Assembly (NCBI GenBank): GCA_035550055.1
Contig: DASZRO010000095.1
Location: forward strand, 1 to 64,000
DNA from: Mycobacteriales bacterium
GTDB lineage: Bacteria > Actinomycetota > Actinomycetes > JAFAQI01
Direction: 5' to 3'
DNA: 64,000 nucleotides
The position numbers and the translations under genes are program-made. A model generated the notes under the pieces. It made no database searches. It saw only the letters and a program-made list of their open reading frames with translations, and was not told the origin of the DNA. This document shows, piece after piece, positions 20,711 through 24,433 of this stretch. The first letter of the stretch is position 1. Each line of letters starts with the position of its first letter.

Positions 20711-20735
20711 GAGCCAGACCCTATGCGCCCGCCCG

Positions 20736-20757
20736 TGACTAGGCAGATGACTAGTCA
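20736..20757. promoter_or_regulatory. TGACTAG direct repeats and palindrome between PBP and bldN
   Basis: TGACTAG occurs at 20736-20742 and again at 20748-20754, spaced by 12 bases (about one helical turn). The second copy extends to the perfect palindrome TGACTAGTCA (20748-20757). It lies in the divergent promoter region of the PBP gene and bldN, a likely place for a regulator. The binding protein is unknown; I did not find a convincing BldD-type box. Confidence 0.4.
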
Positions 20758-20805
20758 GAAATGGCCCGGATTCGCCATGGTCCGCCCCGCTTCGTCCGGT
20801 GTGTC

Positions 20806-21615
20806 ATGACACCCATGCAGCCGTACGGATACACCGGGATCGGTGTAGGCGGGTACGACGGCATGTCGGCGCTGCGGCACGCGGTTTCGATGGCACGCGA
20901 CCCGCTCGGCGGCGCTGAGGAACGGGCGGTCTACCGCTCGATCCCCCGGCCGCGGACGGCGGCGCGCCCCGCCCACACCGTCGGCACGCTGCAGCGAGCC
21001 GCGAGCGAGACGGCACCCCGGATCCCGAGCCCGTCCCCGCCGGCTGAACCGACCAACGAGCAGGCTCGGATCATGGCCGCCGTGAAGGCGACGCAGGACG
21101 GCGACGGTGAAGCGTTCGGTCTGCTCTACGACGCGTACGCCGACCTCGTGCACCGCTACATCTCCTACCGGGTGAACAACCACGCACTCGCCGAGGACCT
21201 GACCAGCGAAACCTTCCTTCGGGCGCTGCGGCGCATCTCCACCTTCACCTGGCAGGGTCGCGACTTCGGCGCGTGGCTGGTGACCATCGCGCGCAACCTG
21301 ATCGCCGACCACTACAAGTCGAGCCGTCACAAGCTGGAGCACTCGACCGCCGACCTGATCGAAGCCGGCGCCGAGCGCCACGAGGACGGGCCGGAGAACG
21401 AGGTCCTGGCCGGCATCACCAACGCCGCCCTGCTCAACGCGGTGCGTCAGCTCGGTCACGAGCAGCAGGAGTGCATCGTGCTGCGGTTCTTGCAAGGCCT
21501 GTCGGTCGCAGAGACCGCGGCGATCCTCGGCAAGAACGAGGGCGCGGTCAAGGCGCTGCAGTACCGCGCGGTGAAGGCACTCGGCCGACTACTCCCGGAG
21601 GACCTGGTCGCATGA
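20806..21615 (+). CDS. bldN: ECF sigma factor, BldN (AdsA) orthologue
   Basis: 269 residues. An N-terminal extension of about 85 residues (MQPYGYTGIGVGGYDGMSAL onward) precedes sigma region 2 (FGLLYDAYADLVHRYISYRV, LTSETFLRALRRISTFTWQG, FGAWLVTIARNLIADHYKSS) and region 4 (QQECIVLRFLQGLSVAETAA). These segments are very close to Streptomyces BldN, which also carries a proteolytically removed N-terminal prosequence and drives chaplin and rodlin genes for aerial hyphae. I chose ATG 20806; ATG 20815 is equally possible. It is translationally linked to the downstream micro-ORF and anti-sigma gene. Confidence 0.93.
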   Translation: MTPMQPYGYTGIGVGGYDGMSALRHAVSMARDPLGGAEERAVYRSIPRPRTAARPAHTVGTLQRAASETAPRIPSPSPPAEPTNEQARIMAAVKATQDGDGEAFGLLYDAYADLVHRYISYRVNNHALAEDLTSETFLRALRRISTFTWQGRDFGAWLVTIARNLIADHYKSSRHKLEHSTADLIEAGAERHEDGPENEVLAGITNAALLNAVRQLGHEQQECIVLRFLQGLSVAETAAILGKNEGAVKALQYRAVKALGRLLPEDLVA

Positions 21616-21668
21616 GTACGCCGAACCTGCTCTGGGTCCGCACCGCGGGACGGGCGGCGACCCGATGA
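21612..21668 (+). CDS. 18-codon micro-ORF linking bldN and rsbN
   Basis: ATG at 21612 overlaps the bldN TGA, and its own TGA at 21666-21668 overlaps the ATG of the anti-sigma gene; both junctions are ATGA. The peptide would be MSTPNLLWVRTAGRAATR. It could be a translational coupler that lets ribosomes leaving bldN reach rsbN, whose start has no good Shine-Dalgarno sequence. It could also be chance. No function for the peptide itself is claimed. Confidence 0.4.
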   Translation: MSTPNLLWVRTAGRAATR

Positions 21669-22729
21669 GCCACACCATGAGCCCGAGCGAGCGCTTCGCG
21701 CAGCTGGTCGACCTCGACGCGCCGTCAGGGTTCCTCGACGGCGGCGACCCGCGGATGCGGCCGGTCGTCGCGCTCGCCGCGGCGCTGCGCCAGGCCGCGA
21801 CCGCGACCGCCCCGGAACCGATGTCCAGCGCGACGAAGCTCGCCATGCGCGAGCGCCTGGTTGCCGCCGCGACCGCGACGCCTCCCGTAGCGGCGACGCC
21901 CGGCGTCGCCGCCCGCGTGGTGGAGGTGATCGAGAGCGGAGAACGACGGGCCGCCCGTGCCGGTCGGCGGGTCAGCCGGCGCATCACCACCCTGGTCGGC
22001 TCGGTGGTCATCGTGACCTCGGTCGCCGGCGTAGGGGTCGCCGCCGCGCGTTCGCTGCCCGGCTCGCCTTTCTACGACCTCAAGCGCGCCACCGAGGCAG
22101 TCCAGCTGTGGGCAACCTCGGGAGAGGCCGCCAAGGGCCAGCGACACCTCGAGTTCGCCCGCACCCGGATCAACGAGGCGTCGAACCTGCCCGCCGACTC
22201 GCCGTATCTCGCCTCGACGCTGAAGGCGATGAACGACGAGATCCGTCAGGCCAACTCCGAGCTCGTCAAGGCGTACCGCTCGACCGGCGACGTCCAACCG
22301 CTCGCCGACCTGGTGCGCTTCGCCCGGACCCAGGCCGGCGAGCTCGCACAGCTCGGCGCGAGGCTGCCCGCGACGCTGCACCAGGACACGGCGTACTCGG
22401 CGAACCTGCTCAACGGCGTGACCCAGGAGATCCGGTCGCTGACCGTCGGCGTCTGCCACCAGTGCGCCACCGGGTCCGCCCCGTCGATGCCCTCGCCGAC
22501 CGTCGCGCCGAGCACCACGCCGTCGAGCCACCCGAGCACCACCCCGCACACCGGCAAGCCGTCCGATACGCCGTCGGTCAAGCCGAGCGTGGCCACCACC
22601 ACGAACCCGCTCCACAACCTGCTGCCGACCGTGCCCCCGCTGCTCGGCGGCGGCACCGGCGAGCCGCTGCCGAATCTCACCCCGTTGCCGCTGCTCACTT
22701 CCCTGGCGCAGCTGCTCGGCAGCAGCTAG
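21665..22729 (+). CDS. rsbN: RsbN-like transmembrane anti-sigma factor (DUF5667 family)
   Basis: 354 residues. A cytoplasmic N-terminal region (about 1-115) should bind BldN. One membrane segment follows near 118-138 (TLVGSVVIVTSVAGVGVAAA), then a helical extracytoplasmic DUF5667-type region (LPGSPFYDLKRATEAVQL) and a Ser/Thr/Pro-rich tail. Position directly behind bldN and topology match Streptomyces RsbN, the cognate anti-sigma of BldN; sequence resemblance is in the DUF5667 part. The start is ATG 21665, with ATG 21677 as alternative. A rho-independent terminator follows. Confidence 0.88.
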   Translation: MSHTMSPSERFAQLVDLDAPSGFLDGGDPRMRPVVALAAALRQAATATAPEPMSSATKLAMRERLVAAATATPPVAATPGVAARVVEVIESGERRAARAGRRVSRRITTLVGSVVIVTSVAGVGVAAARSLPGSPFYDLKRATEAVQLWATSGEAAKGQRHLEFARTRINEASNLPADSPYLASTLKAMNDEIRQANSELVKAYRSTGDVQPLADLVRFARTQAGELAQLGARLPATLHQDTAYSANLLNGVTQEIRSLTVGVCHQCATGSAPSMPSPTVAPSTTPSSHPSTTPHTGKPSDTPSVKPSVATTTNPLHNLLPTVPPLLGGGTGEPLPNLTPLPLLTSLAQLLGSS

Positions 22730-22750
22730 CCCAACCGCTTCCCCTCCACG

Positions 22751-22785
22751 GTCGCCCCGGCTCCCAGCGCCGGGGCGACTTTCGT
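22751..22785 (+). terminator. Rho-independent terminator after rsbN
   Basis: An 11-bp perfect GC-rich stem (22751-22761 with 22769-22779) with a 7-base loop, followed by TTTCGTT. It lies 21 bases past the rsbN stop, so the surface protein gene downstream needs its own promoter. Confidence 0.8.
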
Positions 22786-22810
22786 TGTGCCCGGAACGCC
22801 GCGTTTGGTC

Positions 22811-22838
22811 CGTCACCACCACCTGGGTCGGTCGTTGA
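22811..22838 (+). promoter_or_regulatory. Putative BldN-dependent promoter of the LPYTG protein gene
   Basis: CGTCAC (22811-22816), 16 bases, CGTTGA (22833-22838). As I recall it, BldN promoters in Streptomyces resemble CGTAAC, 16 bases, CGTTGA, so this site differs at one position. It lies between the rsbN terminator and the surface gene, leaving a leader of about 60 bases with a strong GGAGGT at 22895-22900. Confidence 0.45.
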
Positions 22839-22906
22839 AGCAACTGGCGGCGCCCAGTCGCCGCGCAAGCACATCCGGTCCGCCGGACCTTCATGGAGGT
22901 AATGGC

Positions 22907-24346
22907 ATGCCCAGCATGAGAACGCGTCGGGGCGCAGCCCTCGGTGCACTCGCGCTCGCCAGCACGACGACGTTGGCGGCTGTGGCCGCCACCCCGGCGA
23001 CCGCTGCGAGCGGAACGACCAAGGCACCGGCGTACTACGCCGGCGCGGCGCAGGGGAACGCGCTCGGCCTGAGCATCGACCTTCCGGTCAAGCTCCCGCT
23101 GCTGCCCAACCCGCTCAGCCTCAACCTGATCCACCTCGAGGGCAAGACGGTCCACGACCCGCTGCACCTCGCCGGCACGACCTCCGCGGTGTCGAACGCG
23201 ACCGCGAGCCTGGTGACCGGCAGCCTCGTCGACGCCCTGCAGAACACTTTGCACGTCGACCTCAACCGCACCGCATCGGTGGCGCTCGGTGGGCTGGCCC
23301 ACCAGGAGACCTCGCTGCTGGACATCCCGGCGAAGCCGCTGGCGGACCTCTCGATCGGTGACCTGGTCGCCAACCTCGTCAAGAGCACGAACGCGACGAG
23401 CTCAGGCGCGGAGTCGATCCACGCGAACATCGCGTCCGGCAACGACCTGCTCGGCGCGCAGACGGTCACTCAGGTGCAGAACCTGGTCAACTCGACTCAC
23501 CTGACGACCACGCTGCAGGGCACGGTCAACCAGGTGCTCTCGACGCTGCAGAAGGTCACCGCCACGACCCCGATCGTCGGTGACGCGGTCAACACCGTCA
23601 CCAACACGGTGAACGCGGTCCTCGCCAAGGTGACCAACCTGGTCAACAACCTCGGGACGACGCCGCTGGTGAGCATCGACGTGCACTCGACCAACCAGAA
23701 CGTCACGCCCACCGCGAACGGCGTCACCTCGACCAGCTCGATGGGCCTCGTCGACCTCAACGTGCTGGGCGGGCTGCTCTCGATCGACGGCTTCAACAAC
23801 TCGGCGACCGCGTTCGCCAACGGTGTCGCTGGCGGCGCCAAGGCGACCGTCTCCGCATCGAAGCCGCTGATCCAGATCAACGCTGCTGACGCGCTCTGCG
23901 CCCAGGTAGGTGCCGATGGCATCAGCCTGTGCAACGTGGACGGTCTCGGCCTGCCGGCCGCGATCACCACGCAGGTCAACGGCCTGCTGAAGACCCTCTC
24001 GAACGAGATCAACCAGATCACCTCGAAGATCCTCGGCAGCGTCCCGCTGATCAGCGAGACGCCGGGCTCGACGCACGTGTCCGAGGACGGCAAGAGCGCT
24101 ACCGCGACCGCGCCGTCGTACAACATCTCGGTCGGCAACCTCCTGACCGTGACCCTCGGCAACGGCGTCTCCGCCTCGGCGGCGGCCCTGCAGGACAAGC
24201 CGTCCAAGGTCGTCGTGTTCCACGACCCGCAGAACACGCCGAAGACGCTGCCGTACACGGGCCTGAACGAAGGCCTGCTCGGCGTGCTCGCCATGGTGCT
24301 GCTCGGCATCGCGGTGGTGGTTCGGCGACGTCTGATGGCCCGCTAG
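22907..24346 (+). CDS. Sortase-anchored (LPYTG) secreted surface protein, BldN-neighbour
   Basis: 479 residues. Signal peptide at 1-33 (ALGALALASTTTLAAVAATP), then a long Asn/Thr/Ser/Val-rich domain with few charges, two cysteines 10-12 residues apart (ALCAQVGADGISLC), and a C-terminal sorting signal LPYTG followed by a hydrophobic stretch and RRRLMAR. The start is ATG 22907, six bases after GGAGGT. No enzymatic motif is visible; amphipathic, beta-rich composition suggests a structural surface layer, by analogy with the sortase-attached long chaplins. Placement beside bldN/rsbN and a BldN-like promoter supports developmental control, as inference. Confidence 0.85.
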   Translation: MPSMRTRRGAALGALALASTTTLAAVAATPATAASGTTKAPAYYAGAAQGNALGLSIDLPVKLPLLPNPLSLNLIHLEGKTVHDPLHLAGTTSAVSNATASLVTGSLVDALQNTLHVDLNRTASVALGGLAHQETSLLDIPAKPLADLSIGDLVANLVKSTNATSSGAESIHANIASGNDLLGAQTVTQVQNLVNSTHLTTTLQGTVNQVLSTLQKVTATTPIVGDAVNTVTNTVNAVLAKVTNLVNNLGTTPLVSIDVHSTNQNVTPTANGVTSTSSMGLVDLNVLGGLLSIDGFNNSATAFANGVAGGAKATVSASKPLIQINAADALCAQVGADGISLCNVDGLGLPAAITTQVNGLLKTLSNEINQITSKILGSVPLISETPGSTHVSEDGKSATATAPSYNISVGNLLTVTLGNGVSASAAALQDKPSKVVVFHDPQNTPKTLPYTGLNEGLLGVLAMVLLGIAVVVRRRLMAR

Positions 24347-24380
24347 GTCACGCGCTGATGCCTCACTAGAGGCGAAGCTC

Positions 24381-24415
24381 AGGAAGCCCCGGTGTCGTCG
24401 ACACCGGGGCTTCCT
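24381..24415 (+). terminator. Strong hairpin after LPYTG gene
   Basis: A 35-base near-perfect palindrome, 17 bases on each side of a single central base, rich in GC and ending in GCTTCCT. It lies 35 bases past the LPYTG stop and before the HAD gene start. Confidence 0.85.
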
Positions 24416-24433
24416 GGCGTTGCGAGGCGGGCG

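Follow-up and report, generated by a model that had tools for sequence, protein, structure and literature searches.

What does the sigma factor BldN control in actinobacteria without recognisable chaplins? The factor is known for activating the sheath of chaplins and rodlins, but its gene is also present in genomes that yield no chaplin. The question is raised by a locus within the 64,000 nucleotides of a Mycobacteriales genome analysed here (GenBank assembly GCA_035550055.1, contig DASZRO010000095.1, positions 1 to 64,000; hereafter the window), in which bldN and an rsbN-like anti-sigma gene precede a gene whose product is a secreted, hydrophobic protein with an LPYTG sorting motif. The locus offers a testable answer to the role of BldN in chaplin-less genomes, namely the control of a sortase and of a sortase substrate. 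From gene order and promoter conservation, we consider it probable that the BldN/RsbN switch has here a rewired output, a sortase and a hydrophobic wall-anchored protein taking the chaplins' place.

The sigma factor gene (20806–21615, plus strand; open reading frame 20761/20806–21615) encodes a BldN-family extracytoplasmic function (ECF) sigma factor with an N-terminal extension. The BldN model TIGR02952 is its best family by far, at 202.4 bits against a cut-off of 206.45, and 117 of 177 core residues (66%) are identical to those of a Streptomyces-type BldN, region 2 being nearly identical to that of the Streptomyces-type genome. Among solved structures this sigma factor is closest to 6dxo chain A (E 4e-62), which is likewise of the ECF type and which we take to belong to the S. 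venezuelae BldN-RsbN complex. Membership among BldN proteins has been defined by an identity to Streptomyces BldN well above 50%, together with local synteny (PMC4255298); in addition to its core identity, the window gene adjoins an rsbN homologue and lies near HAD and plsC-like genes that are also present at Streptomyces-type bldN. The anti-sigma gene itself (21665–22729, plus strand) is located directly 3' of bldN and encodes a protein with a DUF5667 domain (PF18915, 44.5 bits) and one membrane span read from the sequence; tblastn identifies the gene that follows bldN in Streptomyces-type loci as its homologue, and on these grounds it is called RsbN-like. Its product gave no sequence match to a solved anti-sigma chain that would point to a BldN-binding, inhibitory N-terminal segment; rapid divergence is known for RsbN proteins (PMC4255298).

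The third gene (22907–24346, plus strand) encodes a protein of 479 residues and starts at an ATG (22907) common to its orthologues, behind a GGAGG ribosome-binding site (22895–22899, plus strand) that has GGAGG- or GGGGG-type counterparts at the equivalent place in the orthologues. The protein has the features of a sortase substrate: an N-terminus that by eye resembles a signal peptide, the LPYTG motif at residues 448–452 (24248–24262, plus strand), a hydrophobic stretch and an RRR tail. In an alignment of 13 family members, 26–80% identical, all have an LPxTG-like motif (MPRTG and LARTG in two of them), a membrane span and RRR. The window protein has a grand average of hydropathy (GRAVY) of +0.23 and 10% charged residues, and the mature proteins are hydrophobic across the members (GRAVY +0.15 to +0.39, 6–17% charged). 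Used as a query for related loci the LPYTG protein found nothing; whole-genome searches did recover relatives, with strong matches in 15 of 60 related genomes and in 16 of 297 genomes of the class, from five families. In all 15 loci examined the LPxTG gene lies directly 3' of rsbN and, where the contig reaches, bldN is found 5' of rsbN and a HAD gene after the LPxTG gene. The inspected genomes with another gene order (Streptomyces, Sporichthya, Actinospica and others) have no LPxTG gene after rsbN, and the sigma-factor tree does not settle whether the linkage arose once. The only known domain that could be recognised in the family is a weak mid-protein match to the choice-of-anchor P profile NF040603 in 3 of the 13 members, one of them at 27.4 bits for a cut-off of 27; the window protein does not match this profile. 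Its single-sequence AlphaFold model (mean predicted local distance difference test score, pLDDT, 39) is too poor for comparison.

Between rsbN and the LPYTG gene lies a hairpin terminator (22750–22780, plus strand; 12-bp stem, then TTTCGTT; −27 kcal/mol, z −3.6), and a second hairpin terminator follows the LPYTG gene (24380–24418, plus strand; −39.7 kcal/mol, z −7.8). Since a hairpin with a short T run parts it from rsbN and a stronger one follows it, the LPYTG gene probably has its own transcript. The order of bldN, DUF5667 anti-sigma gene, terminator and LPYTG gene set out in the original prediction is thus confirmed by profile matches, folding energies and sequence features.

That transcript would start near 22845 (plus strand), as predicted from a promoter-like sequence at 22811–22838 (plus strand). 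BldN is reported to recognise CGTAAC-N16-CGTTGA (PMC2375139), and the original prediction had claimed a related site, CGTCAC and CGTTGA 16 bases apart; this sequence is present exactly, with its −35 element at 22811–22816 and its −10 element at 22833–22838. No other site of the window comes within one mismatch of CGTMAC-N16-CGTTGA, 0.85 such sites being expected by chance in 64 kb, so that a single site proves little. The check proposed for it, conservation in relatives, gave a clear outcome. All 15 readable orthologous LPxTG genes, from several families, keep a site composed of CGTMAC (CGCAAC in one genome, G012), a spacer of 16 or 17 nucleotides and CGTTNN, which ends 68 to 161 nucleotides 5' of the start codon, and the site persists in other families at an LPxTG protein identity of only 26–38%. 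With up to two mismatches to CGTMAC/CGTTGA allowed, the site is found before 15 of 15 LPxTG genes (expected from Markov shuffles, 0.068 per gene) and before 1 of 13 HAD, 1 of 13 bldN and none of 12 bldM-like control genes. A reversed pattern was unsuitable as a control, its expected frequency in GC-rich DNA being different, and control genes and Markov shuffles were used instead. Because spacers and flanks vary between the genomes, the conserved motif can be read as a footprint.

A BldN-type site is likewise found 5' of rsbN in 13 of 16 relatives; Streptomyces rsbN has a BldN-dependent promoter (PMC4255298). Moreover, when 25 genomes were scanned for exact CGTAAC-N16/17-CGTTGA, the genome of the window yielded one match, at 90491–90519 (minus strand) of C95, the contig that holds the window. 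It is located 81 nucleotides 5' of the start codon of a sortase gene (C95:89633–90409, minus strand), outside the window and 65 kb away from the locus. The product has a PF04203 sortase domain, and among the sortase classes the class E model NF033747 fits it best, with 108 bits; as the cut-off of 160 is not reached, we call it class-E-like only. Fourteen of 15 orthologues of this sortase gene keep the promoter with up to two mismatches (expected 0.034 each). Of 60 genomes, 13 contain both this sortase and the LPxTG gene. Two have the LPxTG gene alone, and both are incomplete drafts; two others have the sortase alone, one of them (G002) because its contig stops shortly past rsbN. Because the sortase that probably anchors the LPYTG protein has this promoter too, the predicted output of BldN is a sortase/substrate pair. 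The gene after the sortase (L222:3785–5131, on C95) overlaps the sortase stop codon (ATGA), and the two form a probable operon. The product of this second gene is secreted, matches fn3 weakly and has a membrane span at its C-terminus but no LPxTG, and relatives of this fn3-type protein are present in 12 of the 15 sortase loci.

Do these organisms then lack chaplins altogether? A search confined to PF03777, the chaplin family, gave no match in the LPYTG protein, in the genome of the window, which is 98.75% complete, or in any of those with the LPxTG gene; across the class it detected chaplins in 66 of 297 genomes. By sequence, the LPxTG proteins form a separate family and are not chaplins, in line with the original prediction, which had called the window protein an unrelated surface protein. 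The further suggestion that it represents a different output of the same switch is supported by the promoter conserved in 15 of 15 genes, by the lack of detected chaplins and by the sortase with the same promoter.

The mechanism that we propose would be the following. Membrane-bound RsbN would keep BldN inactive until development begins; released BldN would then guide RNA polymerase to CGTMAC-N16/17-CGTTG promoters, one of which would drive the adjoining LPYTG gene and another the class-E-like sortase gene with the downstream fn3-type gene. The LPYTG protein would be exported and joined to peptidoglycan by the co-expressed sortase. In developing and perhaps sporulating cells this would create a hydrophobic coat fixed to the wall, in the role that chaplins have in Streptomyces. 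Promoters of this kind would, in relatives, extend the control to rsbN, which would give negative feedback, and probably to genes for a SigH-type sigma factor, an SsgA-type protein and secreted wall enzymes.

Several points weigh against this proposal. The genomes are related, and gene-by-gene probabilities such as those given above overstate the case. In G003, a close relative, the site of the LPxTG gene has a poor −10 element (CGTTTC), and the rsbN site is missing in this genome, in G002 and in that of the window, where rsbN closely follows bldN. G033 has bldN and the sortase site and no LPxTG gene, and the window's genome has other sortases that could anchor the LPYTG protein. Finally, hyphae or spores of these organisms are only presumed. 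This last point, together with an LPxTG family devoid of known domains apart from the weak choice-of-anchor P match, speaks for a scenario in which BldN does control the LPYTG and sortase genes, the protein being an adhesin or an envelope-stress protein and BldN a stress sigma factor here. We regard this as unlikely. The mature protein is hydrophobic and poor in charges in all members, and development in Actinoplanes makes use of hydrophobic proteins anchored by a sortase (PMC13251363). In addition, a looser scan of 15 genomes, which contains chance matches and whose single items are to be taken as leads, places the same promoter type before genes that fit development or dormancy. It lies 5' of a SigH-type sigma gene in at least eight relatives, the product in G002 scoring over two SigH equivalog cut-offs, and 5' of an SsgA-family gene in at least four, which starts 35–38 nucleotides after the motif where this is clear; a sigma cascade through the SigH-type gene is possible. 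Among the matches listed, the site also precedes an Rpf-like gene, an NlpC/P60 gene, several other secreted-protein genes and a DUF1800 gene, which was scored in G003 and has a similar counterpart in the window's genome. The Rpf-like gene, like the SsgA-family and SigH-type genes, bears the site in several relatives.

Rather less probable is that the promoters are real but serve chiefly a different ECF sigma factor of similar motif preference, and that the LPYTG gene adjoins bldN only because the gene order was inherited. Related −10 motifs are indeed known among ECF sigma factors, and two genomes, G022 and G045, carry a second bldN-rsbN pair elsewhere. However, the motif equals that reported for BldN (PMC2375139) and, as a positive control, the strict pattern picks out bldM when applied to Streptomyces-type genomes. 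The DNA-binding regions of the window's sigma factor are near-identical to those of Streptomyces BldN, rsbN itself bears the site in most relatives, and G005, a 96% complete genome devoid of bldN, is also devoid of both the LPxTG gene and the class-E-like sortase. The second bldN-rsbN pairs (G022:C3 and G045:C46, from one genus) have neither an LPxTG gene nor the usual neighbours. That the promoter match is due to chance in GC-rich DNA and the gene order accidental is very improbable: one match of such quality is expected per 64 kb, but 15 of 15 orthologous genes keep the site at similar distances with differing spacers, the control genes do not, and five families share the gene order.

Returning to the proposed BldN/RsbN switch with a sortase and a wall-anchored protein as its output, comparison with known systems shows what is shared and what is not. 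Streptomyces long chaplins ChpA-C are anchored by the class E sortases SrtE1 and SrtE2, and the chaplin genes are targets of BldN. The LPxTG proteins resemble ChpA-C in being hydrophobic and in having a sorting signal for wall anchoring (predicted here), and differ from them in that the window protein has no PF03777 domain, no sequence relation and an LPxTG instead of an LAXTG motif; moreover, the sortase gene itself has a BldN-type site. With the Streptomyces BldN/RsbN system (Bibb et al. 2000, 2012; reviewed in PMC4255298) the locus shares an orthologous sigma factor, an adjoining DUF5667-type anti-sigma gene and the promoter motif, rsbN often having its own BldN-type promoter. Streptomyces BldN activates the genes for chaplins and rodlins as well as bldM (PMC4255298), whereas here no chaplins were found, no site precedes the bldM-like gene, and the LPxTG and sortase genes carry the site. 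The gene order is also different, pbp-bldN-rsbN-LPxTG-HAD here and HAD-bldN-rsbN-plsC-like in Streptomyces-type loci. BldM was considered as a conserved BldN target in the window's family and rejected, the bldM-like gene (contig C73 of the window's genome, 24336–24944) lacking the promoter; either the step from BldN to bldM would have been lost in this family, or the bldM-like homologue would be a paralogue. In Actinoplanes a class E sortase acts in development, as do hydrophobic anchored proteins other than chaplins (PMC13251363, PMC13293333). The proteins CwpA, CwpB, SspA and SrtE of Actinoplanes missouriensis are alike in that non-chaplin, hydrophobic or disordered wall-anchored proteins go with a class E sortase; the likeness is one of description, and BldN is unmentioned in the two papers. 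A comparison with the choice-of-anchor P family extends only to the three weakly similar relatives, not to the window protein.

As for bldN itself, the identity proposed for the gene holds, and the start proposed at 20806 is uncertain, 20815 and 20864 being alternatives, because its ATG sits in an upstream block of conserved DNA and is out of the bldN frame in relatives. This block of about 75 bases 5' of bldN (20735–20811, and at the same place in G001–G011) reads GACTAGTCA..AAATRGCCC..ATTCGYCATGGT..GGTGTGTCATGACA and shows strong conservation throughout the family; it resembles a bldN promoter or the operator of a regulator. The N-terminal extension contains a motif conserved in the family, GLAALRxAVAxARDP (20864–20910), and a similar one, GLATLRATV, is present in Streptomyces BldN; this likeness, together with the family conservation, suggests that the extension has a function.

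The literature searched, which did not extend to subscription papers such as Bibb et al. 2012, contains no paper linking BldN to a sortase or to an LPxTG protein. The BldN/RsbN switch is known, and its proposed output of a sortase and an LPxTG protein appears to be new. Beyond the locus itself, we tentatively put forward a wider possibility, that several mostly uncultured actinobacterial families have a BldN-run developmental programme without chaplins. In it BldN would directly control the sortase, the LPxTG coat protein, rsbN, a SigH-type sigma factor, an SsgA-type division protein and wall enzymes, and the covalently anchored protein would replace the self-assembling chaplin/rodlin sheath. 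If the proposal is true, one old switch would be found to work with exchangeable coats, a coat-protein family would be predictable from gene order and promoter alone, and a handle would be gained on development in actinobacteria that are known mainly from metagenomes.

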